From NCBI RefSeq assembly GCF_000003815.2, contig NC_049979.1:9570267-9634266 (forward strand): DNA of 64,000 bases. Reading direction: 5' to 3'. Every line of letters begins with the position of its first letter. Positions within the stretch are counted from its first letter, which is position 1. This document shows positions 14,401 to 63,914 of the stretch, in pieces. Below the pieces are notes generated by a model, which was not told the DNA's origin, did not search any database, and saw nothing but the letters and a program-made list of their open reading frames with translations. The stretch is from Branchiostoma floridae. Taxonomy: Eukaryota > Chordata > Leptocardii > Amphioxiformes > Branchiostomatidae. A program made the position numbers and the translations under genes.

Positions 14401-17400
14401 TGCTGCAAAGCTCATAGTCCTTTTAGCATATAGTCAGACACCCTGTATCATGGTTTTGTTCCAATGGTCAGTCAGGAAGTTCACATTACTTAAGCATGAT
14501 TGAAATATCAGACACATTTCAGTATCTAGTTCTATTAGTATGTCTATGCATTTGAGATCATTGGGAACAGCAAAGCCTCTGGCAATCTCCCATTTTTGAA
14601 ATGTTGTTCAATACCCTTTATAGAACAGTGTGACATGATATAATATCATCCATGGATTTGTAATTGTATCAATGTTACTCTGTGAGCTGCCCTTTTATTT
14701 ATTCTTGTTATTACATGTATATTCATATGACTGAGTATTGAAAGTGTCTGTGACTATTTTTCAGGTCTGAAAGCAGAACTGGTGAACAGGCTTTTTGAGT
14801 TCTACAAAAGGGTCAGTTGTCTCTACATTTGTACTTTACAAGTTTTTAGTAAATTTAGTTAGATAAAAAGCACAGCACTTATGTTGGATTTTTGTGGATG
14901 CACATGTAGAAAAGAGAAATTGTCTGAGTTGCTATGTTATGCATGCTTTTGATGTCACACAATGATTAGTATGGCAAGTATGAAAACACGAGACATTTTT
15001 TAGCTAATACCTACTGTTAACAAAAGGGTCAAACGTAGTACCAAAGCTGTTGTGCAGGTGTGAGATGGCATGTTCCTTTTGGATTGAAAACTATCTGGGT
15101 CTTTTCTCTGTAGCAAGCCCAAGCAGCACAAATGGAAAGAGAGAGAGAAGCTCAAGCACAAAGGGAGCAAGCAAGTAAGTATCTATCTTTTCTGTCCATG
15201 CGCAAAGCATACAAGTGTGTATTTAATACATATTATAGCAAGGATTGAAAGTACTATTGTTCATGTGAAATTGAGAAATGCTTAAAAACTTCTTTGTGGA
15301 AATTATTTTCATAACAGGTACAGTTTTGTAATATTATTGTAATGGTATTGTGGAATAGGAATAGGTAAACAATAACAAAACAGTTGTCAATAAGCTGGAA
15401 AACAGGTATTAATGATATTTCTATGAAGCGGGTAGATCCTAGTAATTGGCAGGAACCCACCACACTTTTAACAGTATAGCCCATACTTAAAGAAAAGTTT
15501 GTTGCTCCAGTCTTTTTGTGAAGTTGTTGGTTCTTCAGTCGACATGGGCCGTTAATTGTGATGTTCTAGCTCAGCCCTATGATTTATAAATATGTAACTT
15601 AATTTGCAAACTCATGTCCATAGGCTAATTGCTAGGGTACATACAGACACAATGACTATATGATTTATTACATATAAAAGCACATCTCACACTTACCTGT
15701 TCTCCAGTGGCCCAGCAGCAGCAGGCAGCAGTGATCCCCCCTCCCCAGCTGATTCAGCAGGAGCAGGCCCCCCCACAGCTGCCACCCGTCCTGCAGCAGG
15801 CCCAGCAGCCGGAACCCCCTGCACACCCTCCCCAGCCTCCTTCCCAGCTGCAGCAGATGGCTCCCCAGGTCCTGCAGCAGGCACCCCCCCAGATGGTCCC
15901 CCCTCCACAGATGGTCCCACCCCCTCAGATGGTACCCCCCCAGTCTCAGCCCCAGATGGCGCCCTCCCCTGTCTCGCAGCACCAGATGATGCCGCCGTCC
16001 TCCACCCAACCTCCCGCACCCAGGCAGCTCCAACCCCCTCAGATGACACAGGCCCCCCCTATGGGTGCGCCTACCCCCCAGGTGTCCCAGCAGCAGCACG
16101 TTGCCCAGCTGGCCCCACCCTCCCAGCCGTCGGCTCCACCACAGATGGTTCCCCCTCCTCAGCTGCAGCCGGCCAGCTCTCAGCAGATGCCTCAGGTAAG
16201 ACATGTACCTTAAGTCCTTAACCTGCTTGGGAAATAAGCTTGACATCCAAACCTTTTACAGTTGATTGTCTTTGTACTCAAATCTATTGTAGCTGTCGAG
16301 TCCTTTCTCATGGAGAGTGTACGAAGTGACTCCGCAGCTATAACAGGTCCTAGGTTTGGATACCTGGCTTATTGAAGTCTTTTTTGATGTTCTCTTTCTT
16401 TTACAGCTACATGTACTATCAAAAGCCATGAATATCCCATCTGTCTGTAATAGTACACATTTAAAAAGCCAACACATGTGATGCATGATATTGTGTTGCA
16501 AATATCATTATGTGTTATACATTCTGCTTAAACCTCTGTGTGGAGGCTGTTTTTAGAAGTACACTTGAATTGAGTTATTGAGCAGCTGCTGTTTTACTGT
16601 CAAACTTTTATGACCAAATAGTTCTAGGTATTGCATTAACAATTCATGCACAGCTGGTATGTATAGAATGTGGTCCAGTTGAAATATTGAGAGTAAGGTC
16701 CATGCTACCTTACTACAGGTTCCTGCTGCAGCTCCACCAGCCAGCCAGACAGCTGTCCTCCCCCCACCTGGCCTGGTCATTCCAACTCCTCCCAAGGTAG
16801 GTCGCTTTAGAGCATAAAATGTGTCAGTAAATGTGTAGTCTTGTCTTTTATGATATTCCATTCATACAGTTGTTCTACCTTTGTTATCAGTAATATGGCC
16901 ATGCAGATTTGATAGTTGGTTTAATAGCTATTATTCTCATAATCTGTTGGAGTGAGAATGAGAAAAAAGTGGTAATGTCATTAGAATACAGTGCAATTTT
17001 GTTGGGCAAGAACTATGGTAAAGGGGCATAACATGTATCTGTCCAAGGGATAAATGTATATTTATGGTCTGATGTAAGGGTTTTTGAAAGTTGCAAATGA
17101 TGATAAAAATAATGGCAAGATATTGCTTTTACTGAAATATGATCATAAAGGTTAGATTGTAATTGTTTACCCTAAAACATAGAAGGGTAATTTTACACAG
17201 GAGACTAAGGTTTCATTGCCTATGATTCCAGCTTTTCTCTTAGTTAATTTTCAACAAATGAGTTTATTTGTTATTGCAACACAGGAAACTTCAGGTGAGG
17301 AAGTGAAACTGCGGCTGGCCCAGGAACAGGCTCGTATCCTGGCTGAACAGGAGCAGCAGCAGAAACAGGTGGGTAGGGAGGAAATGAAAACAGACTGATG

Positions 17401-35522: not shown

Positions 35523-38135
35523 CTAGAAGTCCTGCCCTGTCACTGTTTTCGTCAGGACGGCTCTACACTTCCCGAGCATGACGAACAGACCGTTTCTCAG
35601 CTGTTTGTTCATGAGGGAGTAGATGATGGGGTTTATACAGGCGTTTAGCCATGCCACCATGGCGCACAGTTTGTACAGCCAGACCTGCCCGGAGTTCGCC
35701 TTGTCCACGATGCTCAGCACCATGTAGGGCAGGAAACACAAGGAGAAAGCCACGAACACGGCGAACGTCATCTTCGCCAGCCGGACGTTTCTGCTGACTC
35801 TGTTCTGGGCTCTAATCCTGCGCGCCGAGCTGTCTGGGTCTGTGCGGTCGCCGCTGCTCTGCTGCCTGCTGCTGTCATCCAGATCATCCCCGACGCTTTC
35901 AAGATTACTTGTCGGGTCTGTCTCTGAGAAGTACGCCCGTGCCCGACCTGCCCGAGACGGCGAAATTTCTCGACGACCAGAATGGTCTAAGCCTAAACTG
36001 TTCCGTCTGAACGACCGCCCACGGAGCGACGCTTTTCTCTTCTTCGACTTCGATGTTAAATTCGGTATCGTTATCAAGCTACTGGTTCTTGTTCCTATGT
36101 TCCTCTTCTCTTTAGGGGAGCGGTCGTTGTTTAACTCGGGATTTGAGTTGCTGTTCTTGTCAGTTTGCTTCTGCTTGGATGAAGGTGAAGAAGCTGTGCA
36201 TCTCTTTATCCCTCCGGTGGAGTCGCTTCCCGCCACTATGAACACGTCATCCATCTCCAGATCCACGGAGATTTTTACATCAGGCGGTTTCTTACCGTTC
36301 GTCTTGACGGTGGTTCCCTCACTTAAACTATTTAGTTCGGACGCATCCGAGAACATGTTGTTGTTCTTTTGGCCCCTTTTGTGGACCCTCTTCTTTTTGC
36401 TAAACTTGTTTGCGCTGGTACGAACGGTTCTGAGAATGCAAGCGTAGGAGAAGCACATGACGACGGTCGGGACGATGCAATAAGCGGAAAACAACGCCGT
36501 CGTGAACGACGCGCTGACCTCACGGTCAAAGCTACAGGTTGAAACTTTATCGAAGAACGTAAAGCGGCCCCAGACGCCCAGGGCCGGAGGGAGGAGGGAA
36601 AGAGCCGGGAGCAGCCAGGATACGCCAATCATCACAGTCGTCCCGGTCTTGTTGTAAATGGACCTGTACTTACTGGGATGAACGATCAGGAAGTACCTGT
36701 TGACACAAAGGGTGTGAAGTAAAGGTTATGTTCTCTTTAAAAGTGCAAACAACACATAGTAAAGCTGCAAACAACACAGAGGCCATACACAGCCCCCGAG
36801 GATGTTTGACTGGTCCCTTTCAGCTGTCGCTACGTCGTATGTCTTGAAAGATAAAAGCCGTAATAGGAGACTTCGCAAAAGCTTTTGCATCCGCCATCTA
36901 GCACGTATTAGGGGGCTAACTACAAAGCCCAGTCTGCCGATTCTGGGTTTTGTGTTTGGGAAACCTGTTCCAAACACATCGGATTACTCATGGATTATCC
37001 CCTTACACAAGTTGCAATTAAACATAACACGCCGATCCTGAAAAGGCGACAAACAGATTCGTACTGACATTTCTAAAGCTTCAGACACCAACTACTCCGT
37101 ATACTGAACAACAAATGCAATAATGTCAATGGAATTCGAGTTTCTTGCACTTCACAGAATTGCCTTGACATCATGACGTCAACACTCGCGTGCCGTAATA
37201 TTGCGGAGATTCGGAGGCATTCTAAATAACGTGTCATGGACATTTTTTGCCATGTCATGCCGTCTGCGAATTTTGATTGTTGTCTTTTATTATCGTGACG
37301 TCAAGAAAATAGCTGCAATGTTGCTGCAATGCTTTTAATTAAAACATGAGAAAATTTGTCTGAAGTGAGAAATGCATTGGGGTCATTGCATGGAGGCGAA
37401 CAATGGTTGCTGTAGCGTAATGTCCGCAAGGTTTAATACACTATCTTACCTGCGGTACGATCTTTACTCCGTTTGACAGGCGTTTGGAATCGGTTATTTT
37501 GGGCTTTTAATGAAGTATTTCAGCTGTGGCTATTGCAGCCCGCTGTAGGCTAGAAATTTGCTCGACGAAATGATTTTATATCGTAAATACCTTAAAATAT
37601 CCCTGAGCTATTATAGCTAACTCCGCTGTTTTGATAAAACAGAACCGTGAGAATGTGTAACACGTAGTCACCGCTGCTGTTGTCCGTCCACACCAGATGG
37701 CCTACATCAAAACACACTCAAACACATCAAGAGGGACTAAGAGTTTCAACACTCCGTTAGTCTATAGTAACGGAGCGGGCAATAACTGGCAAACAGGACA
37801 GTTCAAGAGACGTGGAATGCGCACCTGTTTAATGCCACGGCACACAGGGTCAGCTCCGACACGCCGAACAGTAGGAAGAGCACGTAGCCGAAGACGCTGC
37901 AGAACACGGGGCCGAACTCCCACCGGCCCGCGATGTAGGAGTGAACGGTGATAGGCTGCAGCACGGCCGAGTACAACAGGTCCGCCACGCTCAGGTTGAC
38001 GATGAAGGCGGTGGACACCGTCAGGAGTTTCCTATTGGACGTGATGGTTGCTATTGTGGCGATGTTCCCTACCGTCCCCAACACCGTCACCAAGATGCCT
38101 AGAGCTACGCCGACGAACTCGATAGGCTGGTTCAT
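35523..38135 (-). CDS. Class A G-protein-coupled receptor, Tre1/Moody/GPR84-like orphan
   Basis: Two minus-strand exons, 37825-38135 (ATG 38133-38135) and 35523-36696 (stop TAG 35523-35525), make 494 residues. TM1 (about 8-30) has GTVGN; TM2 has NLSVADLL with the conserved Asp. TM3 ends in NRYFLIVHPSKY, so the usual DRY is NRY and the splice site falls inside its Arg codon. TM4 and the loop have LGVWGRF and STCSFD; TM5 is about 169-193, and the third cytoplasmic loop is very long (about 194-408), basic and Ser-rich. TM6 has FSLCFLPYMV and TM7 NACINPIIYSL (NPxxY, 459-463). No signal peptide. The NRY motif and the WGRF...C loop resemble insect Tre1 and Moody and vertebrate GPR84-type receptors. 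The ligand is unknown. A melatonin-receptor-like assignment is the main alternative. Confidence 0.85.
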
Positions 38136-45817: not shown

Positions 45818-48800
45818 CTAGGCATACAGACACAGATGCAGCAGCTGGAGGTACAGAACCAGGTACAACAGTCAATTCTAGTCTCTAAGCAGACCTATCG
45901 GTGGGAAGGCAGTATCTCAAGGACCACAGGCCTCATGTGGCCTGTTGGATACTGGATGGCCACCGATAGATCTGCTTGGAGATTAGTCAATTCAACGTTC
46001 TGACATTCGTGTACATCTTGGATAAATGCAAATCTTAGTAAGCAAAGTGCACTCTTGTACTGGGTATACTGAATGGAAAAAATTGTCAATCATCTGCTGT
46101 ATGGTGTATAATTCGTTTTCGTTCTTGGGTGATGATTCAGAATGTAATGTTACGTGAAATTGCCTAACGTGACAAATTCAATGTACCTCTGAGCATTCGT
46201 AGTAGAATTAGTCTGGAGCAGCTTTCCAATTTCCCCGTAGTTAACTTTAACCCAGTCCACTCAGCTCCTCATGCTTGAGGGTCAGGTACTAGTACTATGG
46301 TAGCACCTTATGATTTATGCATTCAACATTTTCACCACCGTCTTTGTTCCTTCTGCAACATTCGCGAATGACATGCTTTTGCACCGGCGCCATCCACTGG
46401 GACAACCATATTGCTAATAATCGTTTTCCCTTGCTATGTAGTGGCTATTTCAGAGATTTGTTAACCGATCTTTTGAGCTGTCTGGAGGGTGAAAAAAGTT
46501 TCTCAGAGCTGTTAGCGTTGACCTTACACCCCGACCGCTAACTCAGCATTACTCTGATGATCACAATGACCATTCTCTGCACTTTGCCACTTTCTCACAC
46601 CCATTAGATACATGATTGAACGGGCCGGTATCTGTACCACGCAAAAACAGTTTTGACTTTGCCTTAGCACTGCGATAATGTTACCCTGTTGAAATCGGCA
46701 TTCACTACACGTCGGTCTCTGTAAGTCATGCGGCCTATTTGTGGCAACACAAGTGAAAATTCCTGTAGATCCCTCTGAGTCAGTAATTTCCCTTCGGCTG
46801 TTCTGACTTCCATCCCTGCAGAAATCACTTTCTCTTGGTAACTGGAAGGAAAGGGCGCAAAAGTCTTTTCACTAAAAAGAGACCTCCCCGACCTACTTGG
46901 CTTTGTAGTGTTCGTGTTGCGAGGCTCCTCTAATGTACTTAATGCAATTTACCTGTCGCAAATCCATCTTGGCGCTATCCTCTAGGGGGTCCTGGTGACG
47001 CCGGTATGCCGCTGTAATGGTAAGAAAGGCATGTTCACTCGGCACTGGGACATTAACGGAAAGTCACGTCAAACAAATGTGCTCAACAGGCGACTTCTAT
47101 CTCTGCATCGGCATTCCAATTGCAAGCACCGCGCACTGTAAGAATTTATCATGTATGTATCAACAGACCTATCTTTACACCACTCTCTTTTCTCTCTTAC
47201 GGAGATTGTGCAATTTTCTTGGCTTATCATCCCCAAATATGTGCCCACTGTTTAGTACTTTTAGTAATGTTGATATAGCGTTCAGCTGGTGCTCAGTTCT
47301 CTAGGCAAATGTCAGCCGAAAAAAACATCTTCCACTGAAGACTTCGGCGACAGCTGTAATAAACACCCAGGGCACAAATTGGTGTCAACTTTGGAAGAAC
47401 CTTTGTTAACCTCAATCTGCTTCTTGCAAGGATTCATCCTTACCCGGTCGAAGGTGAACATGGGTTAAACTAATCACATCTTTATGTAAAAATCAATATC
47501 CATGTTCTTCGTAGCACCTAATCGACGTTGTGTGACATATAGCTCTGACAATATGCTAGAAGCCAGGTACCGTGATGATATTTCGATAACTTTCTTTGCT
47601 AGTGAATATATGATACCCTGCAGAGATATGATCTCCACTCTTCATGGATACTGGATACACAGAAGTTCTACGTCATACAAGGGGAGGCCGCTGAACCACA
47701 TTGGCCCGGTATAGTGGCAAAAATTAATCTGCAAATCGCGTGTTTCTCTGAAAGAACAATATTTCTAAAAAACTATATTTTTTTTTTACATTTTAGTTGA
47801 TCAACCTACCCAGACTGCTCTTGAGACGACACGCACAGAGAACAAAGCTTTCAAACGACAGGTTGTGGTGTTCGTCAGCAAACATCAGGTACAGGCACGT
47901 CAGGGTAGTGGAGTCGGGAAGAAAACCTAACAGTGACACAGAGATTATTAGATCATTCAGCATCATCCAACGCTTCGTGCTTGGAAGCCCCACCCCCTCG
48001 CTAACGACTTGAGTTGTATTTTGTGCGCCTTTTTGTATTTCGTAGGCTTCGCTCTTTTTTCCGTTCAATCCATCCGTAGACATGACTTCTCGGTAAAAAG
48101 CTACTTTCTGAGAAAAATGTATTAGTGTTCCCGTCCCACGCTTGTACCTTGTGACAAGACTTCCCGTTAAACAGTTACTTTTTCTCAGAAAATTTTTTTT
48201 TTGGGTCGGCATGATTGACGTAGCCTGACGTCATGCCGACAGGTGAGATTGGAACCTCTGCGTGAAAAATGATTGCGTGGACTCCCGGCGGCGTTCACTC
48301 GGGGAGCGGCGCTGGATCATCACTGCGCGCGGTTAGGTTCGCTACGGGAGGGAGCTTCTTATATAACTTTTAATCACACTGTTGTATTAGATCTAGATCT
48401 ACAGTTAAGACACGTTCTTTCGGCGCAAATACACACGTAAGGTTCACTACGGGGGATACATTCTTATATAACTTTTAATCATTAGGACTAAGACAAATTT
48501 TGTACAAATACATCAGTTGGGTTCTCCTCTGGAGGTAGCTTAAAGAAAAGCTTCTTACAGAAATCTTAGATATAAGGAAGACACATCAAATAAAGTTACA
48601 TAAGAAGTAAGGGCACAGAAAGGAGCAATGAAATCTTTTGCGTCAAAGTATATGGGTCGACAAAAAGACATGGGCATTATTATGCCAGGTGATATTTTGC
48701 ACCGTTATCTGTACAATTATTCACTCTTCTATCTAAGATCGTCCATGTCATGGATGTATTTTCGTGACATAAATCGGAGCTGATCACAATAATCCTTGGC

Positions 48801-51800
48801 CTGCAGCTCGCCTTTCCAGGAAAGCTGAACAGTTCCCGGAAATGGCGCGTCGTGACCTAGACAATTTGACGCGAAAGATTTCCTTGCGGCCGGTTCGCTG
48901 ACCTGGTTAGTGTTCTCTTACATAAACTGGCGTCTGAGTGATTGGAATTAATTTTCAAACTTCACCTATGCCCTACATCAAGTGGTCGTGGATTGGGACA
49001 ACTTTTAGCTTCAAGAGAAATCTTTGCCATAATAAACGTACGGAATATATAAGAATCTCTTCCAAACTTTAATTTTAAGTCCATGAAAACAATACCTAAC
49101 CACTAACCACTTCTTCGATGGTTGGTGAAACTTCAATCGTGTAACGTTTTTGGCATACCATATTTGATATTAGGTTCATCGAAAACATAATTTTTCAGTG
49201 ATGCTTTAAAAACGTACGCCGACATAGCCACGACACGGGTGAATTCTTTATTGGACGTTTGGTACTTCCTGGGGACTTTTATATCCCTTCCTTGACGTAC
49301 ACCTGGAGATATCAGAAAGAAGGTAACACGAGGCCATATCCTTAGCCTCCCGAAGCAGTCTCTGACCGGGGCTTTTTTGTTGGGGGGGGGGGGGGGCAGT
49401 TCACGATTTTTCAACGTTAGCTAGGATCTCTTATGCCGGGAAAGGGAGTTTGTCGAGGAGGGGAGTTTGCTGTGGAAGGGAATTTTGCCCCGGTTCGGTC
49501 CAAACCGGGTTACGGGAGGCTACCAGATCCCGGCCTCTCCAGCCATGCATTTCTAAGCGAGCTACGAGCCAACATGAAGTTAGTTCTACAAACTTTAGCA
49601 CTGATTCCACTGTGCACTAGATTCCAAGAGATGATGTATGAGAAGAGACGCTCACCTATGTCCTGAAGCGCCATGCCCAGGTACATGGCGGGGAATGCGT
49701 CACACTTCGCCCGGTCATACTTGTTGAAGATGTGCTGTAAGATTGAAAATAATATCTCTTAAAACCCTTACATTCTGCATAGTTGGCGAATAGACTGATG
49801 GATTGATCAATAATCTGTTGTTTTGGCGTGGCCGAAACAAAACAATTAACGGAACACATTCAGGACCTTCCCACGACATTGCTTCCAACCAAATCAAGGT
49901 CGGCACTGGGTTGGGAGTAGGGTGGGATCCACTCTCTTTTGGCCCGTTTGCTCATCTGATCACGGATATTACATTCCCGAGTTTCATTATTTATCAAAAT
50001 TCATAGTCGGATACCGCATATAACTTTTAAAGACTATTTTTTATCCTCACCTACCAACTCCCAAACACTCCCTACCGCTCACGACTAACTCCTAACCATG
50101 GTCTGGAGATGCTGTGTGTGACAAGAGTTATTTTGTGTCCCTCATAGGCCGGTACGCAGCATGTTTGCCTGTTGCTAACGTGCGGATAAACACTGGATGT
50201 GCCTCCCTCCCCCGACACCCTTATTTAATTACTCACCTTCCACAACAGCGTATCCAGTAGCATAGATCTGAACTCCTCGTACGACATCGTGCCTCTGTGA
50301 TCGACCTGCCGTACGTTAAGGACTTTTCAAGAATCGCCATATCTTAGCAATGTGTAATTTTAATAATGTCTATTTTATGATCAAAGGATCTTGGAATGAA
50401 AGTTCTAGTCCACCTTCTACTTTATCTAAATTTAGATAAAGCCTCATAACGTCTTTTTGTGAACCAGATCATCTATAGTCAAGCTGTTTTATCGATCCGT
50501 GTCTACCATAGATTAATTAAGGAGAACGCACGCACGCTTGTCACGCAATTCATCGATGACGATCTGACCTAATCAAAGTTAAATTTAAAAAGTGACTTTA
50601 TGGTGTCGTCACGGGTACAAGAAAGTTCCGCGTGTAGACAAGGTAGTTTATGTGTGCGCGCGCGCGTGTGTGTGTGGGTGTGCATTATGGTGAAAGGATA
50701 CGTCTCTCAAGGCTACTATATGTCTGCAGGCTTTAAGCGTGAAATGTCTTTGGTTCATATCTGAAAAGAGAACAAGAAAAATCAACCCAAATGTTTTAGT
50801 CAACAGCTGAATCTTATTCTTAGAAAACTCTTCGTCATGCCCCTTGAAATATAACAATCCTCGCTCCTTGCTTCTGGAAACGAACGAAAAAAAAAACGAC
50901 TGATAAGACAGTGCTGACAAAAGTATTTCAGCTGGTTCAACAGCGCCCCCTGTGACCGTCCATAAATATGCACCTTGTAGTTGTACATTTATAAATTGGG
51001 GCATCAAAATACCAACTTCCTGACTGAAAACACAACAATGTTTTTCTTGATAAATATATTGTCCTCGAAAAACATCCAATTATAACGTTAGGTCTGTTTT
51101 TTCTGCACCCATACACCCTTACCTTTGTTTCCGACAATGTTTAAGAGCTCCACAAGTTGGTAGGGAGTTACCTCCATTGCCTGTGGGCAGGTGGAAATGG
51201 ACAAAGAGACATACATGTATATGGTTTGGTTTGAAATGTACAGTTATATATGAAAGTCTCATATGAGATATGGGGTGCGACGATCAATATCATCGGAACG
51301 GAACGGTAGTCATGAACCGATAGCAAAGTGCAACCTGTGAACTAAAATTTGAACCCAGACCCTTTTGTTAACACCTACCTCGCCTGAGACGTTATAGAAA
51401 TACTGCCTAAAAACCTCCTCCTGGCCTCGCAACTTCTCTGGGTCTAATGGTATCTGTATCAAGATAAGGGTGTTATTAAAACATGGACCCCAGGCCTGTG
51501 ATTTGGGCTTAGCATTAAATAAAGTCTCCTTCAACCATCGAATTCTTACTATTGTATGGATAAAGCGTAAGCTTGTTACCATAGTGTTAAGCGTAACACA
51601 CATTAAAAGTCGTTCTTGTAGCCGTGTTGTTGAGAGGTAAATGATTATCTTCACGCTTTGCCTGGAAGAAGTAATTCGCGTACACGCATGTGACATACCT
51701 GGCTTAAATGACATCTTCAAATGGACATACCTGTACCTGGACGGTCATCTCTCGTGGTTTGTCTAGAACATCTCTGAAAAGTTGAAACAAATTTAACGAG

Positions 51801-54800
51801 TCTTTCATGCTGTCAGCCGTGCGAATGTTACAGTAGATAATATGGTAGCATGTTGACTTTGAATTGTAATGTCTGATTTTAAATCAATGGGTTCGAATTC
51901 CCAATGCTGAGTCCTCGGCAAAGTAACTTAGCGCCGATATTCCTACTCGACGTATGTGAAAATGGCACATACCCGATAGATCTATGTGTCCTCTCGAATG
52001 GGACGTAAAATGAACAAGCAAACAAAGAAACAAGTCAAAAGACAAACAAGCAAAATAAATAAGCAAACTATTACTCCAGGCTACCTCAACACTGCGTTAC
52101 TGCCGCTGCAGACCCTGAGAGAGAAGAGTCCGTCCTCGTGAGGGTCGTACGTGGACGGGACGATGATGTACTCGGCAGCAGGCAGCCGGACCCGCCGGGC
52201 GACCTGCCTCAGGCTGACGTACTCCGCGGACCGGGCCACAGACGCGTGGGACGAGAAGAAGTCGGGACCCAGAGGCAGGCGCGCACCTTTGGGCTGTTCG
52301 TTGCAAAAATGCAAAGATGATTCTTGCGGATTTCATGTTAACACAGATGTGGTGAATATAGACAAAAGTTAGCCTTACTTCGACAGTTGGCAGCTGTCTA
52401 TCCGTGGTGCATGTAATATTGTAATTTTGAGTATCATTTACCTACTCAGTCTCAATTGTCCACACGTATCAAGACCCAAATGCCATTTTAAGATAACAGG
52501 TTACTTAAACGGCTAGAGCCGCCTAGGTCTTCTGAAACAATATTTTGCAGAATCAGAGTTAGTACTTCGTTTTCAGGGTATTTCGAATGTGGTATCGCCG
52601 TTTACATTGACTTATATGCATTCATGTGTAGTCTGAAAGCATGATATTGCGATATCAGAATTCCTTATTTCGCGGAAGTGTTAAACGTACATTATAGACA
52701 GCAAATCCTATCGTCCTCAGCGGCTTCCCCCTTCTCTGTCTCTGGCGGAGGGATATGACGCAGCTACATCCGGGCTCTTCTCCCGGGTTCGCATCCTTGT
52801 CGTTCTCCACTAGATGTAGCCTGAACTGTGGGTTGATCCAGAACGTGTCTACAGTACCATGGAAGGACGGTAGGATGGTTAGGGCATCAGCTAAACAATG
52901 GTATGAACAAAAAGGACTGAAAAGAATTTAACATACTTCATGAGACAAAGAAATTGCTCTAACGAAGTGTGAACGCTAATAGCTCTTCCTCAACTTCTGG
53001 TATAAAAAAGGTCGAATTAGCTTGCATATCGGCAACGAGGGATAAAACATCTAGAGTTGGAAAGTTTCTGGAAATGTATAAGGAATCTTCACTTGAGGCA
53101 AGTGAAGAGTCTGATGTTCCAGTTTTAATGATGCTGTTGGTTTATGCTAACTTGAAACAACCGAGCAGTACCACAACCTCCCACCTTTGACTTGTGAGCA
53201 CCCTCCTGCGGTCAGTCCCTCCGTCCACTGCCCATGCGCGCCGGCCATGACCCATCTCTTGCGCTGATCCCTGATGACCTCAGGAGGCACGTGGCAGATC
53301 TCCAAGTACGTGAACTGCTTTACAAAGTCATCAAGGGCCATCCTAGTGCGAAAAGAGCGGTGATCGGTTTAAAATAAGTCACAATAAGTCATGGGCTATA
53401 GTAAAAACCATTTCAGCACCAAGGACAGACTCCAACTTCCCATCTTTATGCGCCATGCACTCTTTACTTAACCCGTAAAAAGATGCGATTATTTGTACAC
53501 TAAAAGTAGTTAATAAGAGATTAGATCCTTATCAAAATGGTATTGGTTGGTTGCCTATGTTCTTAACTACTGCGCTTACAGTCCAACATCTTAACAAATT
53601 CACATGTAACAACATTCCACATTACATAACCAGCAGAAATTTCTACCTACAGTCGACGTAGTTGTGGACGTGCCATGCGTTGTTTCAGATACTCACCAGA
53701 CTTCCCCTGAACTGTCAAACGTCAGGCCCATCATTTCTCGCTGTTCGTTGGATATACTCTTCCATTCTATGGATCTACCGAAGAAAGAAACAAAATATGA
53801 TGTCTAGATGAAGGTTAAACACCCAGGTAATTAGATACGCCAAATCACAGTTACTCAAGAAACTGGATATGGTTTTTCATTGTCTGACAAAGATTATCAA
53901 GAACTCGAAAGGACTTCTGTTAGGTGCTGTTTTACGATACTTATTGCCTCCTCGTGTTTCATGAAAAACGATAAATTTCTCTCTACCTATAGTGGAGATG
54001 CCAAAATATTTCAGAAAGTTTGTGCAGATCAGATCCTTACTCCTCACTCCAGGAACCCTTCCAGTCCACGGTCTCTCCGTGCGGACTGCGCAGTCGCAAT
54101 AGAGGAATCTCTCTGTCGTCACCCCTCGGTGTCCTGACTCTTACCTGTAGGCGCATATCACACGTCACTTTGGACGTACAAACATTTTTTCTCAAACAAC
54201 GATCAAGACAGCAATTTTTGGCAAAGTCTTGACGAGGATCGCCTTTGTTAGAAGCACGTGATTGAATAAAAAGTACACCATTGATAACAATATTTCGTAA
54301 GTGCCATATGATACCTCATTCCATTTTAGAAGCAGATGAATAGTTCAGTGGTTAACACCTGATTTTCTGACCATTTTGTTGTTTTCGTTTGTTCTTGTAT
54401 ACAGTCAATATACAATAGAGTTCGTACCTTGGCCAGTGCAGATATCGCGTAGGCCTGCTCAGCATACAACCCACTGGCTGTCAGCTTTCGCTGGGGCGGT
54501 TTTTCTGGAGACTGAATACAGGTGAAACATGAAGTCAAGTCAGTTAAAGAGAGCCAATGGATTAAACAAGTGTTTGATAAAATATGACTACGTTTCCGAC
54601 TCTCTACAGCACATTTTTATTTCTTATTTTCTGTTTGTTTGTACAGTACTAGTCATCAATTTACTGTATTCCGCGATACTTATAATTATTTTTGTCATTG
54701 AGGGTAATGTTCTGCAGATTTGTATCTTCCTTCGCATAGCATTTGTTCAACATTGTCGCCCGTGCTTGTATCGACAAACATTATAGGGTATAAGGGCAGA

Positions 54801-57489
54801 TATCTTTTAAGCTCACCGAAATGTAACAGCTCAGCAGAGAATAACGCTCAAACGCCTTCTGAATGAGACTAAAGAAATGGCCGGGAAGTTTTTCCTTGAG
54901 AAAGTAGACCTCGGAGATGCCTCCTGTCCAGTCTTCGACGGCGTCTGTTGTTGACAGCTCTCTCAATGCCGCATAGCTACCCAGAAGCCTATAGGCAAAA
55001 TATGAATAAAATTGAGTTCAAGTTTTCTCTATACATCTGTTATCGATACATGTGTATCTTCATGAAATCAAACGCAGTCAGTGTGACCCTACATCATCAC
55101 ACTCTAGACAATCTAATTAAAAACTCGACATAATTTTGATACGATGAAAGAATTCATAATTGGATTAATTTCTTTATCGGTGACATTAGTGGATGTGATC
55201 TCGCCGCAAATGAGCCACAAACATCGACTTCATATAGCGGCGAGAAGCAGGGACCCAGTATGAAGCTCTGAGGAAGGTGTCTGAGAGACACCGAAACGTA
55301 AGCAAAGTGAGCACAAACAGGTTGTGTAAAATAATTCTTCAATATCCGACGTAATGGAGTTTCTGTCTAATGTAATGTCTGTAATGTCAACGTACTTTGC
55401 GTAGGCCTTCTCCAGAAGCGACGCCCAGAAATGCCGCTTAGACACGGAGTGTGCGAACACGAGCTTCCCGTCTATGGTGGGGAGCCTGTCGTCCACGGCT
55501 ACTTCTGTCCACCTGGAAAAAACAAGTGATTTCTTTTGTTGAGTTTGAGGATTACTTTGTGGTAACCAATGTACTGATGTTGTATTGAAGTACATGATTT
55601 GCGCATTTTGCCTTATCAATACTGTGATTCTTAATTTTTGTGTGATGTGAATCCAAGAAGTGAAAGATGTGAGACTTTTGCTACGCGTATTTGTTACTTT
55701 AATACTCACCCGTCAGGTCCCCACAGTCGAAAACTGAAGAGCCCGCAGTAGCCCTCGGAGAACCCCTGCAGTTCCGGCTGGACCGCATGGCGGAACAACT
55801 TGGAGTTCTGGCACACAGACGACATGCTGGCGACTATCCGCGCGCTCCCTGTCAGGATGACGATGGAACACAGATTTCAAAAATCGTACGCTATTGTATG
55901 TTGCCCTTAATTACTTCCACTTGTAATCATGCCCGTTCTAATCGCCTTTCAAAATTTACGAAGAACTTCAAAAATACTAACGGTGCAATGGCTTGTGAAT
56001 GGAGTGTTCGCTTTGAATTTTGAATGCTTTCTATTTTGTACCCCTTTGTTCATGTACAAAGTAGATAGTCCGACAAATCGCCGTAGACACGTCAATATAA
56101 TTTCTGCCTGGAGAGTATCCTCACCTAGTTCTCCCGGGTCGACGTCAAACGAATCCGTACAGCTGCCCAACTGCGGACTGTTTGTCAGTTCCTACAGGGG
56201 AACGAGACTTGATCATTCACCAAATCAACAAACAGACATACATAATTTGATGATTCAATGACTGATTTAAGTCATTCAAAAAACATTCAAACTGACGATC
56301 GCATGTCGTACGATTGTATTGAATTTAAGGTGTAATATGTAGGAAATTAGATTTGTCATGATGCTGATTATGTTGTTCTGGCGCCACGTTGTATGAGTAC
56401 TTATTGTATAGTACTTAGTGTTTGTCCCGTATTTTTCACAGCTACGAAGGTATCATGGAAAACAGATGTGGGAAATTCCATTTCATTATATCAAATGTCT
56501 TTGAATTCAGATATGGATGACAACCACACAATCTCTCTAGACTAGCCAACGAGTGAAAGTTATAGCGGTTGTTTTTTTGCCTCAACAACTTCCTTAATGT
56601 TCCCTCTGTACGCATTTCCGGGTCAGAGCTCGGTAAGGTAATCTTGATCTAACACCTGTGTGTCCCTGCTCTTGCCTACAACACACGTTATCAAGGCTTT
56701 CGGGTCAGTGGAGTAACTTTGTACCGCCGCCTACAGGTCAAAATACAATCCTACCCAGGTCAACATACAATCCTACATGTACTACCGATGTTCATGTAGT
56801 GGTAATTCAGTTGAAATTGTTGACATAGTTGATGCAGTGTGAATGATGGCCCCACCCATATACCTGCTCAGCCCTTAGTTGGACAGGCAGACACAGTCAG
56901 GTTACCGTGTTCTATATCCGTGGCAGGTTTGTCGGACAAGGTTCCCTTCTTTGCGGGACAAGACGATTATGTGTGCACAAACGTGGTGTAAACACGGGGA
57001 CACGTCAGTGTATGGGCGATCCTGAACAATTGGCTGGCAATGGGCCGTAACACGGGGTAAAGAAAACACAGCTACCGAAATGGCGCACCCAGTAGCAGTA
57101 AGGTTCATTATCGGGGGCATCTAGCTATATGGTTGGGTAGAAATCATCATGAGTTCTAATGTTGTTGCTGTTAAACGTTCATGACAGTTGTTTTGGGGGT
57201 TTTACCTTTGAAATGAATAAATGCCCAAATGACGTATACAAAGACCTTTCACGGGTTACGTACACCATTTGGGATTCAGGTGAGCGAGTAAAGAAAGAAT
57301 GTCTGTACGTAACATTACCTTCGGTCGTCTCCAGAAGACTTGTCTACCGGCCAGTCTTGGGTCCCCTTGGGGTGATATGGAGCGATCTGACGCCGGGAAC
57401 TCATCATCCTTGAACAGCACACCGTCCCTGAAGCACCTTTCCCTCAGCGCATCCACGTTCACACCCACCTGTTGTCTTCGGACCGCCAT
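45818..57489 (-). CDS. Calpain A: complete calpain-like protein without the catalytic triad
   Basis: Twenty minus-strand exons: 57319-57489 (ATG), 56125-56191, 55710-55848, 55396-55512, 54817-54988, 54428-54511, 54041-54144, 53697-53774, 53185-53342, 52691-52848, 52085-52293, 51731-51773, 51379-51453, 51123-51180, 50702-50760, 50237-50305, 49656-49734, 47810-47926, 46953-47011, 45818-45844 (TAG). Phases agree, giving 680 residues (human CAPN1 714). Order: N-terminal anchor with [10 protein letters not shown], CysPc core (about 20-345), CBSW/C2-like domain (about 350-490, [20 protein letters not shown]), penta-EF-hand domain (about 505-680) ending LLHLCLYA. The GDCW site reads GSAR (Ala82 for Cys), GHAY reads EQAY (Gln241 for His), RNPWG reads RSPHG (Ser270 for Asn). 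EF2 (564-575, [12 protein letters not shown]) keeps Ca ligands; EF3 (594-605) lost most. The protein should fold as a classical calpain but cannot cut by the known mechanism; a regulatory or scaffold role, as proposed for CAPN6 and fly Calpain-C, is inference. Splice sites are intact, so it does not look like a decayed pseudogene. Confidence 0.93.
45879..45985. mobile_element. CTCCAAGCAG-family MITE, copy 4, with 8-bp target duplication
   Basis: A 107-bp hairpin in the last intron of calpain A. Ends TAGTCTCTAAGCAGACCTAT and the complement ending GCTTGGAGATTA pair over about 26 bp. A perfect 8-bp direct repeat GTCAATTC flanks it at 45871-45878 and 45986-45993. Confidence 0.85.
48335..48482. 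repeat. Direct duplication of a TATATAA-containing block
   Basis: About 42 bp at 48335-48376 (GGTTCGCTACGGGAGG through TTCTTATATAACTTTTAATC) recur at 48440-48482 with few changes. Both carry a TATATAA core. The pair sits in calpain A intron 17, just left of a GC-rich patch. It might be a remnant of tandem LTR or promoter units; no ORF is attached. Confidence 0.55.
49382..49396. repeat. G15 homopolymer
   Basis: Fifteen consecutive G residues on the plus strand in calpain A intron 17, about 260 bp from the exon at 49656. The length may vary between individuals or be affected by sequencing error. Confidence 0.8.
50306..50701 (-). other. U12-type (minor spliceosome) intron in calpain A
   Basis: The minus-strand donor after the codon for Asp564 reads GTATCCTTTC, the exact U12 5' splice-site consensus. 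The branch-point consensus TCCTTAAC occurs at 50315-50322, about 10 bases before the CAG acceptor, the close spacing expected of U12 introns; there is no long polypyrimidine tract. A GT/GC alternating tract (50651-50676) lies near the donor. The paralogous intron at 62976-63382 has the same signals at the same codon position. Confidence 0.88.
50651..50676. repeat. Alternating TG/CG dinucleotide tract
   Basis: A 26-bp strictly alternating purine-pyrimidine run (TG)n(CG)n(TG)n, with an inner CGCGCGCGCG, in calpain A intron 15. It starts 26 bp inside the intron from the U12 donor. Such tracts can adopt Z-DNA; no function is implied. Confidence 0.85.
51860..52075 (+). mobile_element. tRNA-derived SINE remnant (plus strand)
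   Basis: A B-box-like GGGTTCGAATTCCC near 51889 is followed by GTCCTCGGCAAAGTAACTTA, a decayed form of the metazoan SINE tail block, then AATGGCACATACCCGATAGA and TGGGACGTAAAATGAAC, with an A-rich tail to about 52070. The A box is not recognisable. It lies in a calpain A intron between the exons at 52085 and 51773. It resembles the tail of the SINE at 10500-10726. Confidence 0.65.
55175..55345 (+). mobile_element. Retroelement debris with a hammerhead-ribozyme-like core
   Basis: In calpain A intron 4, the plus strand at 55268-55297 reads CTGAGGA, then a stem GGTGTC-tgaga-GACACC, then GAAAC. This is the order of a hammerhead ribozyme core (CUGAUGA, stem II, GAAA) with one core change (T to G). 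Such motifs are known in terminal repeats of Penelope-like retroelements. The partner strands for stems I and III are not clear, so it is probably an inactive remnant. Borders are approximate. Confidence 0.45.
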
Positions 57490-60784: not shown

Positions 60785-63700
60785 TCAGCAGTACATGGTA
60801 ACTGTCAACCACTGCAAGAAACAAAGAGGAAACCTGTTAGTACAGCTCTTGTCTTAATACAAGTGTATTACCACCCAAAAACTTTTAAAATGGAACCTGA
60901 ACAGGAGTCCTGTAAAACCTTAAGACATTCTTCATACAAGACAACAGAATTTTTTGAGGGAGAGATGGGGAAAGAGGAGACGAGAAAGAGGAGAGAGAGA
61001 AACAGTGCTTGCACAAACCTGTTTTCCTGTTATCCTCTATTCATAATGTTGCAGTTTTCCTAAATAATGGCTTAAAGCTTAAGTTCAAGTCATTCATTTA
61101 TGTGAAATTACATCAAAAGCATCAAGTGGTAGATGATACAGGAAACCACTTTGGACAGGATGTAGAATAGGAGGAACTCTGCAAGTAAGATTGGTAAAAC
61201 CACAACAAAGCTTAATATTCATGTTCTACAATTTCTATAAGGGCTAGAATACTTACATCCTCCAGTCCTAGACTGGCCTTGTTGCCATCCATGAATGATG
61301 CGAAGGCCTCTGTTGGTTGCAAAAGACAAGTATTATTGCACATGAATCAAGAGTCACAGCAATACAACAATACTCACCATTTCCGCCCCTTAAACAACTT
61401 GTCTCGCTCCTATGTATAAAATACACTTTGCACTCAAAAAATACAAACAAGATATAACACTAGTTCACCTTCATCCATCGGGTAACCTATATCCGTTGTT
61501 TTTCAAAACAGCGCATTTAGTGATATCCTAGTTGATTGACGACGGTTTCAAATTCTAATATTTTCAAAACATAGCAGTTTGAACTCACATTTCGTCAGCA
61601 TGATAGCCCTAAATACCCTGCTTTTGAAAACATCGAATATAGGTTATCCCGCTGATAAAGGTGAACTAGCGTTATGCATAAAATACATAATACATAATGC
61701 AATGCACATGAATGTGCTCATCAAACTTTTATGTGTCCTTCCGTCATGTCATCAAATTACATTGCACAATGAATAAGAAATATATACTCTGAGTCTGCCA
61801 ATGTGTTTGAAATAAACAATTAACGATGTTTACAAATTTAACTACAGTCATACTGGTATTGAACAAGCGTACTTACTGAACATGGCCTTGAGGCGAATGG
61901 TGAGTGCGATGAAGTCTGGGAAGGAGATGGTCTGGTCGTCAGCCTGGTAACGCAGCACGATCTGCTGGAATATGGTGTTCTTCAGCTTGAAACCTACAGA
62001 ACAAGATGGAAAAAGGAGAAACAAAACTTGATTCATGGCAACAAAGATATTGCAAATAGGTTATAAAACAATAACATATTTCCTCATTAATCTCGTAACA
62101 TACCCTTTACAAATAAAATTCCACACTGCTAAGTACTGACTTCAGTGCTCGAAATACTTTTTTCAGCCTTGTTGCCCAGGCGGCAACCTGAGTCAAAAGC
62201 CAGGTTGCGCCATCAACTTTTCAGGTTGTCCCCACTTCCAAGTTATTACTTTCTTCAAATTAGCTACTTATCCATTATCTTTTCTTCCAGTAATGGTCTT
62301 CCCAACTCGCTACTGTAAAACTTATACATGTAGGTGGGGGAAAGCGGTGTTCCAACTGCAAAATTTCAGGTTGCCCAATGTGCAACCAGGGTTTAAAATT
62401 AAGTTGCGCAAAGCAAAATGTGGTTGCAATTGCAAGTGGGTATTTCGAGCACTGGACTAAGTCTTACATTTGTGAAGCTGGTGTATTATGCCAACAGGCA
62501 GTTATACCAAATATATAGATACATCTGATACAGAAATTGTCTGTTACTCACCCACATGCTCCAGAGCTAGGCGGAGTTCATATGTGTCAAAGTCTCCAGA
62601 CTTATCAGCATCAAACATCTTGAACACACCCTGCATACCAAACATAAATTTCTTTGTTAGCTTGTTCTCCTATACTCAATGTTGTACAAAGGCAAGGCAA
62701 TTCCCATCTTAAACCTGGGTTTAAGACTGAGGTTTTATTGTCAGCAAGGCTACCATTTCAACAATGACATGATTGTACAAACTGTTTATTGTAAGGGCAG
62801 GGCAAGTTTACACAAGGTCCGCAGTCACAAAGGTGTCAATTATGTCATAAGCCTGTGGATTCCTCACTCTAAAGAATATAACTTAAAAGGCAGAACAGGT
62901 ACTTACTGTCCACAGCTTGATGTCTGACCACAAGTCAAAGAACTCATCGAGTCCGAGCATTCCTGACTTGTCGTCCTGAGGTGGAGTTAAGGTGACAAAA
63001 CAGGGCAGAAAAGGGATGAGGCTCAAACTACACTGTACCACATGCATACATGTAGGAGTGGGTAAACTGTTTTGGGATGTCTACCTGCATCTCACTGGCC
63101 CACCACAAAACCAACCCTAGTATGACGTAACATACATCCAGTAGAGGCTCAAAACATGCCTACAGATATAACATGTTTGTACAGCATAGATTTCTACTTA
63201 AGGGCCACATTTCGTTATATGCATTCCCTTCTAATAGATAGTTTTTCCAATGGACGCATGCATAAAGAATCCTATCTCTAGTGACCACCTTTCCACATAG
63301 ACCAGATATTATTGCTACCCCAAGTAGTCTTTTGCGTTAGTTTTGACTGTACATCAATGGAGGTTGACAGTAGAAAGGATACATCCATAAGGGCCACCAT
63401 GGAACGGCACAGCTCCACGTTGAACCCGTTGAATTCAAAATAGGACAGCTCTGTAAGAAGTGAACAGACATCATTAGTGAACACCTTCAACATTTCAATC
63501 TTAAATGCTTTGTGAGTGGTGAGATTGAAGATTTACTTAAATTCATTTCTGTTTTAATTAGCCAAGGTGGCCCATCTCAATGGCATGTTTCTGCTTTTTA
63601 GTGAAGTCCTGCAATTTACATGTAATAATAACATAGAAGTATAAACATATAAAGCTTAACAGGTTAGGCCATAATGTACAAGACATCAGATTTTATAAGT

Positions 63701-63914
63701 GAAGAAGGAAACCTATATAGTAAGTACATGTACTGCATAAATAAACAGTGTGACTTAAAATGCCTTTTTTTTTCAACTTGCCAAGTCACAAAGCATGCTG
63801 TTCATTGTGACATCACACATCAGTAACCCTTTAGTAAATGAACTTGAAATGGTCACCTTTTTTCAATGCCTGGTCCATCATTTTCTTCAGTTCAAAAGCA
63901 TCTATCTCCATATC
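60785..63914 (-). CDS. Calpain B, C-terminal penta-EF-hand exons (gene runs off the right edge)
   Basis: Seven minus-strand exons: 63857-63914, 63383-63450, 62907-62975, 62552-62630, 61877-61993, 61257-61309 and 60785-60811 (TGA 60785-60787). They encode the classical calpain penta-EF-hand domain: DMEIDAFELKKMMDQALKK (EF1), GFNVELCRSMVALMD then DDKSGMLGLDEF (EF2), MFDADKSGDFDTYELR (EF3, canonical loop), YQADDQTISFPDFIALTIR (EF4), MDGNKASLGLED (EF5, the dimerisation hand) and the terminal WLTVTMYC. Exon lengths 58, 69, 79, 117 and 27 are identical to calpain A. EF2 and EF3 keep their ligand residues, unlike calpain A, so calcium binding is expected. The protease core lies beyond 64000 and cannot be judged here. 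CAPN1/2/3/8/9-type calpains are the best match. Confidence 0.93.
62143..62454. mobile_element. hAT-like MITE with CAGTGCTCGAAATAC ends
   Basis: A 312-bp stretch in a calpain B intron bounded by perfect 15-bp inverted repeats CAGTGCTCGAAATAC (62143-62157) and its complement (62440-62454). CAGTG-type ends resemble hAT elements, but the flanking 8-mers do not match as a target duplication. The inside has repeated AGGTTGC / GCAACC blocks. Confidence 0.7.
62976..63382 (-). other. U12-type (minor spliceosome) intron in calpain B
   Basis: The minus-strand donor reads GTATCCTTTC (exact U12 consensus) directly after the Asp codon of EF2. The branch region reads ACCTTAAC, one mismatch from TCCTTAAC, and ends 10 bases before the intron end (CAG). 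Position and phase are the same as for the intron at 50306-50701 in calpain A. Confidence 0.85.

Follow-up and report, generated by a model that had tools for sequence, protein, structure and literature searches.

A calpain gene of the lancelet Branchiostoma floridae, here called calpain A, raises the question of whether a calpain without its catalytic residues is the remnant of a gene in decay or a protein that is still maintained and, if the latter, as what. It lies on the minus strand of a 64,000-nucleotide stretch of contig NC_049979.1 (the window, whose coordinates are used unless stated otherwise), running from its ATG at 57489 to an EF5-like exon ending at 46953, with the domain order CysPc-C2L-PEF. 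The region 54041-55848, to which the loss of the catalytic residues was originally assigned, comprises exons 3 to 7.

The gene model was built by hand from a six-frame translation and then checked by script. It has 20 exons; exons 2-20 are each preceded by an AG acceptor, and exons 1-19 are each followed by a GT donor. As a second method, a custom splice-aware aligner was fed calpain sequences from a solved-structure search; without being given any borders, it returned identical ones for exons 2-9, the three active-site exons included. Two of its proposals were adopted: the start of exon 10 was corrected to 52848, and a 15-nt micro-exon encoding LPTVE (52393-52379, minus strand) was inserted as exon 11 within the C2-like domain, which makes this stretch as long as in human CAPN1. 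Downstream of exon 10 the hand borders were kept. The two methods differ there (the long C2L exon ends at 52101 by the aligner and 52085 by hand, the exon after it starts at 51762 and 51773, respectively, and a further exon ends at 51117 and 51123), so that the PEF part of the model is less certain than the CysPc part; the aligner also stopped short of the last two exons. Its proposal of an additional 15-nt exon (50111-50097, HLQTM) was rejected, since without it the spacing of EF2 and EF3 is that of CAPN1. The 318-nt last exon of the hand model is doubtful, because its GC3 of 0.40 is like that of introns and because reading through exon 20 provides an alternative C-terminus, with a stop after 19 extra codons. 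The initial annotation had described the reading frame and the splice sites of all 20 exons as intact. This holds for exons 1-20 as numbered below, but the start of exon 10 has moved, the micro-exon had been missed and the last exon is in doubt. The features of the gene are as follows.

46953-57489, minus strand: coding exons 1-20 of calpain A (numbering with the micro-exon), GT-AG introns, one open frame, 677 codons
57319-57489, minus strand: exon 1, N-terminal part ending in VFWRRPK (tblastn E 5.8e-6)
56125-56191, minus strand: exon 2, with Asp73 (CBS-1 Asp96) kept and Pro76 at the position of CAPN2 Gln99
55710-55848, minus strand: exon 3, GSAR for GDCW; Ala82 codon GCG, Arg83 codon CGG
55396-55512, minus strand: exon 4, conserved CysPc core (ending in LLEKAYAK), with His153 replacing CBS-1 Glu175
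54428-54511, minus strand: exon 6, EQAY for GHAY; Gln241 codon CAG
54041-54144, minus strand: exon 7, RSPHG for RNPWG; Ser270 codon AGT, His272 codon CAC; also Asp277 and Glu284 at two CBS-2 positions
53697-53774, minus strand: exon 8, near the CysPc end, with Ser307 at the presumed CBS-2 position Asp321 and Glu309 (CBS-2 Glu323) kept
52085-53342, minus strand: exons 9-12, CysPc end and C2-like domain (Calpain_III hit)
52379-52393, minus strand: exon 11, the micro-exon LPTVE, restoring CAPN1 length
46953-51453, minus strand: exons 14-20, penta-EF-hand region with degenerate Ca2+ loops, no EF-hand model over cut-off
46524-46841, minus strand: doubtful last exon of the 20-exon model, with intron-like GC3

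The identity of the gene as a calpain is not a matter of chance, since two Pfam profiles score far over their cut-offs on the 20-exon model: Peptidase_C2 (PF00648) with 271.6 bits against 23.8, covering positions 1-297 of 297, and Calpain_III (PF01067) with 109.3 bits against 21. The latter bears out the C2-like domain that had been read from the sequence at the start. With phmmer, calpain A aligns to CAPN1 and CAPN2 from residues 8-11 to 675-680 (numbered on an earlier model), and its residues 525-672 align to the PEF domain of CAPN3 (4okh; E 1.1e-21). The order of the three domains is the same as in human CAPN1 and CAPN2, which are active classical calpains; the difference is that in calpain A the catalytic residues and most of the Ca2+ residues are replaced. 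A phase-1 intron just before the Asp-Cys block (alignment column 90) is present in calpain A, in its tandem neighbour calpain B and in the lancelet paralogue C4a, and absent from the paralogues C11b, C8 and C12. That it is common to A, B and C4a supports a classical calpain type for A.

All three members of the triad are gone. The active-site blocks in exons 3, 6 and 7 read GSAR, EQAY and RSPHG instead of GDCW, GHAY and RNPWG, and the hand model and the aligner agree that Cys, His and Asn are replaced by Ala82, Gln241 and Ser270, exactly as first reported. Judged by its triad residues, calpain A is not an active-type calpain. An error of splicing model or assembly that conceals an active enzyme is extremely improbable, since each of three separate exons lacks its residue by both methods and since no alternative exon restoring the catalytic blocks, a possibility already raised in the initial annotation, was found in the window. 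No reading frame on either strand of the window contains GDCW, DCW[LFI], G[HQ]AY, HAYS or NPWG, and tblastn with 11 calpain queries detected no restoring exon there. This search produced 48 matches with E<5 outside the exons of A and the region of B; the best of these lies near 24.3 kb of the window (E 0.014), and among the best 25 of the 48 two are inside introns of A (E 1.5 and 1.9). What speaks for such an error is that a short alternative exon could be missed, tblastn being weak on short exons: 5 of the 21 exons of A have no match from other calpains, and 7 more have E >0.5.

The pattern of replacement within the CysPc domain was assessed in an alignment of calpain A with ten calpains that have intact catalytic blocks (lancelet B, C4a, C11b, C8 and C12; human CAPN1, 2, 3, 5 and 9). 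Sixty of its 311 CysPc columns are invariant in the ten comparators and present in A, which keeps 45 and loses 15. Thirteen were classed as functional (CAPN2 numbers): the triad C105, H262 and N286; Q99, W106 and W288; and Ca2+ positions 91, 96, 175, 292, 299, 321 and 323. Gln99, Trp106 and Trp288 have roles in the cleft, and D321 is included as what we take to be a ligand of CBS-2; the remaining Ca2+ sites follow Rawlings 2015 (PMC4631099). Calpain A has lost 11 of the 13 catalytic, cleft or Ca2+-site positions and 4 of the 47 other invariant ones (P = 2.7e-7), keeping 43 of the latter, while the ten active-type comparators, each omitted in turn, have lost none of the 13 functional positions and 0-7 of the others. 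As the functional list was partly chosen after the losses had been seen, narrower tests were run. With the triad and the invariant Ca2+ sites of Rawlings 2015 only, 7 of 9 are lost (P = 4.5e-4), and with the triad columns removed the Ca2+ sites alone give 4 of 6 (P = 0.015). The distant paralogue C7 has an intact triad; it entered the tree but was kept out of the invariant count. It differs at 5 of the 13 functional positions and at 8 of the other 47, so that a change at some of them is no proof in itself that function has been lost.

The Ca2+ switch of the protease core is affected along with the triad. Only 96 and 323 are kept out of nine listed Ca2+ ligands (CAPN2 89, 91, 96, 175, 292, 299, 319, 321 and 323), and of the seven that are invariant in the ten comparators A loses five, although the changes E292D and D299E are mild. 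On these residues calpain A would lack the CBS-1 and CBS-2 sites of an active calpain protease. The cleft is likewise altered beyond the triad, its glutamine and two tryptophans being replaced by Pro76 (at Gln99), Arg83 and His272. These changes bear on the idea that calpain A acts as a decoy whose dead cleft binds the substrates of calpains, or inhibitors like calpastatin, in competition with active calpains. The substitution of Ala for Cys, which leaves no nucleophile, and the retention of the fold positions of CysPc would suit such a role. However, with these cleft residues replaced and both Ca2+ sites damaged, Ca2+ binding there being an aid to the alignment of the triad (PMC3315469), calpain A is unlikely to shape a groove as active calpains do, and a decoy function is distinctly unlikely.

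The penta-EF-hand region is the least conserved part of calpain A, with 38 of 150 residues (25.3%) identical to B, compared with 40.0% between B and CAPN1. The best score of any EF-hand Pfam model is 13.7 bits against a cut-off of 25.4, a weak control in that the whole protein of B reaches 24.4 bits, which also falls short, and only a 93-aa fragment of it exceeds the cut-off (27.8 bits). In the alignment, taking the assigned loop positions to be the ligands, EF1 of calpain A has Asp-to-Ala and Glu-to-Gln changes, EF2 has Arg at the fifth position, and EF3 has lost its third, fifth and twelfth ligands. The EF-hand domain, described as intact in the initial annotation, is thus so in frame and length only, the ligands being largely replaced.

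This region would matter most if calpain A were a regulatory partner that pairs through its penta-EF-hands with the active-type calpain B, or with another calpain, and tunes it. The small subunit CAPNS1 is the model for a partner of this kind, and EF5 is the element of dimerisation. Calpain B lies on the same strand, head to tail with A and about 3.3 kb from the start of A. Its C-terminal part is within the window:

60785-63914, minus strand: EF-hand exons of calpain B, ending in WLTVTMYC at 60811-60785

The catalytic exons of B lie beyond the window (C1:9638918-9641771) and read GDCW, GHAY and RNPWG, an intact triad. The tandem arrangement, the PEF region that both proteins have, the intact catalytic blocks and canonical-looking EF loops of B, and an intron at column 440 (phase 1) that among six lancelet models is common exactly to A and B would all fit a regulatory pair. 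Against it stand the low conservation of the PEF region, the replacement of most of its Ca2+ ligands and the gap between the EF-hand scores of A and B. In the CysPc domain calpain A is no closer to B (40.3% identity) than to human CAPN1 (39.6%), and an intron at column 148 (phase 2) is common to A and C4a and absent from the model of B. A scan of about 5 kb for exons in phase 0 with W near the start found no last exon of A resembling WLTVTMYC, only two poor candidates. A tree that forces A and B together is neither favoured nor rejected (AU p 0.268). On this evidence the two genes may or may not stem from a recent tandem duplication. Regulation of the neighbour by EF-hand dimerisation, as initially proposed, is thus weakly supported, and we regard it as unlikely. 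A search with the PEF region of B for a gene of a small calpain subunit returned five of the exons of B and four weak single-exon matches elsewhere.

Two other open frames were noted in the window. One, at 35526-36725 on the minus strand, encodes 400 aa and matches a rhodopsin-type 7TM receptor (PF00001, 96.2 bits); the other, at 15656-16213 on the plus strand, encodes 185 proline-/glutamine-rich aa and has no Pfam match at E 0.1.

Across the genome, a profile search gave at least 36 exon-level calpain matches; it also gave a short match on contig C405. Ten loci other than A were spliced. B, C4a, C11b, C12, C8 and C7 have all three catalytic blocks intact, while in C4b, C4c, C11a and C10 only some blocks are readable, and those are intact. 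Calpain A is the only one of the spliced loci in which lost catalytic blocks were seen. Seven of the 11 spliced models were aligned; those of C4b, C4c, C11a and C10 are incomplete and were left out. On contig C4, the region 28.34-28.47 Mb (L013-L016, L027, L028) contains a cluster of four or more calpain genes, all on the same strand, with two copies near 28.39 and 28.417 Mb whose His and Asn blocks are nearly identical. In a 12-sequence tree the placement of A is weak, with a support of 27.8/39. Six constrained topologies were compared (A with B; A with the classical calpains; A with C4a; A within B and CAPN3; A with CAPN5 and C12; A with all PEF types), and none is rejected (AU p 0.117 to 0.692). 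Two weaker measures in that comparison, bp-RELL and c-ELW, exclude the placement of A within B and CAPN3 and no other.

Whether the gene is maintained can be judged from its coding sequence. The 677 codons of calpain A contain no stop. As 3.95% of random changes would create one, indels aside, 4.0 stops are expected after 0.05 substitutions per site (probability of none 0.018) and 8.0 after 0.1 (probability of none 0.0003), although their absence is partly by construction, above all in short exons, since exons were picked as open frames. GC3 is 0.653 in CysPc, 0.702 in C2L and 0.646 in PEF, while intron GC is 0.403 and the five paralogues with intact triads have GC3 values of 0.618-0.725. The CysPc branch leading to A measures 1.25 substitutions per site, and an open frame at the end of such a branch suggests that most of the history of A passed under constraint on the frame. 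Moreover, 11 functional losses with only 4 others are unlikely to have arisen in a brief phase of neutral evolution, which makes the inactive state probably an old one, as far as sequence can tell.

The contrary case is that of a young pseudogene, whose function went recently and in which stops have had no time to accumulate. It can draw on the missing catalytic residues and the doubtful C-terminal exon, on the branch of A being the longest among the six non-outgroup lancelet copies in the tree, and on a dN/dS comparison with five lancelet paralogues in which synonymous sites are saturated (A and B have pS 0.713 and dS 2.26, with 20 of 69 four-fold third bases identical). However, the concentration of losses on functional positions suggests long constraint on the remainder, the splice sites of exons 1-20 are intact, and GC3 stands at the level of the paralogues with intact triads. 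Recent decay is thus very unlikely. The proposal that calpain A is a maintained pseudoprotease and not a decaying pseudogene is supported by the intact frame, the coding-like GC3 and the kept fold positions, and on this evidence it is very probably right.

A DNA search for a second, near-identical or haplotype copy of A, meant for a look at polymorphism, listed A itself and 53 repeat matches; scoring covered only 40 of 1391 candidates and may have passed over a diverged copy. A protein search for such a copy gave nothing outside A above 53% identity. The repeat is a dispersed element of about 150 bp in intron 4 of calpain A (window about 55190-55350). The 53 matches listed for it have about 75-86% identity and lie on many contigs, with several close inverted pairs.

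Calpains without a complete triad are common. Joyce 2012 (PMC3315469) aligned 1234 proteins and, after removal of fragments and splice variants, reports 344 calpain-like proteins with an incomplete triad, of which 100 come from animal phyla. The count in Rawlings 2015 (PMC4631099) is 29 of 267, with amphioxus left out for doubts about gene assembly. According to Hastings 2017 (PMC5650170), a Branchiostoma member of the classical family C has lost critical catalytic residues and is likely to be inactive, as are the family C members of Drosophila and Daphnia, while in the lophotrochozoan members the triad is retained. The bootstrap value of this clade is 36. The Branchiostoma member is apparently BRACCAL2, and it is probably calpain A itself, given that A is the only triad-deficient locus seen. 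The passages of Hastings 2017 that deal with it do not discuss Ca2+ sites, gene structure or maintenance.

Two inactive calpains had been named as precedents, human CAPN6 and Drosophila Calpain C, and the literature agrees for both, with the restriction that CAPN6 is inactive only in placental mammals (PMC3731218, PMC5650170). Calpain C, the defining member of classical family C and described as catalytically inactive (PMC5650170), resembles A in being without the triad residues; its His is replaced and its Asn has become Asp (PMC4631099), whereas A has Ala, Gln and Ser. Placental CAPN6, like A, is a calpain that has been kept without proteolysis, with roles in microtubule dynamics, actin reorganisation and muscle differentiation; in marsupials and birds CAPN6 still has the triad, and the inactive form is described as unique to placental mammals (PMC3731218). 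Placental CAPN6 differs from A, which has a PEF region and no triad residue left, in its CysPc-C2L-C2 organization and in its Cys-to-Lys change. As the Cys of CAPN6 was lost only in placental mammals (PMC3731218), the loss in A is independent of it, in line with the independent origin first suggested. The part of that suggestion that concerns Calpain C is conditional, resting on a family C clade with the bootstrap value given above (PMC5650170).

Overall, calpain A is best explained as a former protease of the classical type that has been kept as a non-proteolytic protein with a Ca2+-independent role, a reading that as a whole we hold to be probable, with some reserve. It would have ceased to act as a protease long ago while its CysPc-C2L-PEF body was kept. 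With the nucleophile, the base and the cleft glutamine and tryptophans gone and the Ca2+ sites damaged, it should neither cut nor switch with Ca2+. The kept CysPc core and the C2L domain argue for a protein-binding body, which by analogy with placental CAPN6 and its links to microtubules and actin may serve as a Ca2+-independent binding or scaffold module; for this part of the explanation the balance tips only slightly in favour.

A broader view, which we consider doubtful, places calpain A in a bilaterian family C that lost proteolysis repeatedly, in the ecdysozoan and in the lancelet lines but not in lophotrochozoans, with the triad and the Ca2+ switch dismantled jointly in the lancelet line. 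If this were true, an ancient non-proteolytic, Ca2+-independent job would have been preserved at each loss of the enzyme.

As a discovery calpain A matters little, since inactive calpains are common and a Branchiostoma one was already noted in 2017 (PMC5650170). What appears to be new is mainly the joint loss of catalysis and of the Ca2+ switch in a gene whose coding sequence has been kept. Coding-intact but without its blade and most of its Ca2+ switch, this classical calpain is a natural experiment on the role of the calpain body once proteolysis is gone, which the CAPN6 paper (PMC3731218) and Joyce 2012 (PMC3315469) also ask about.
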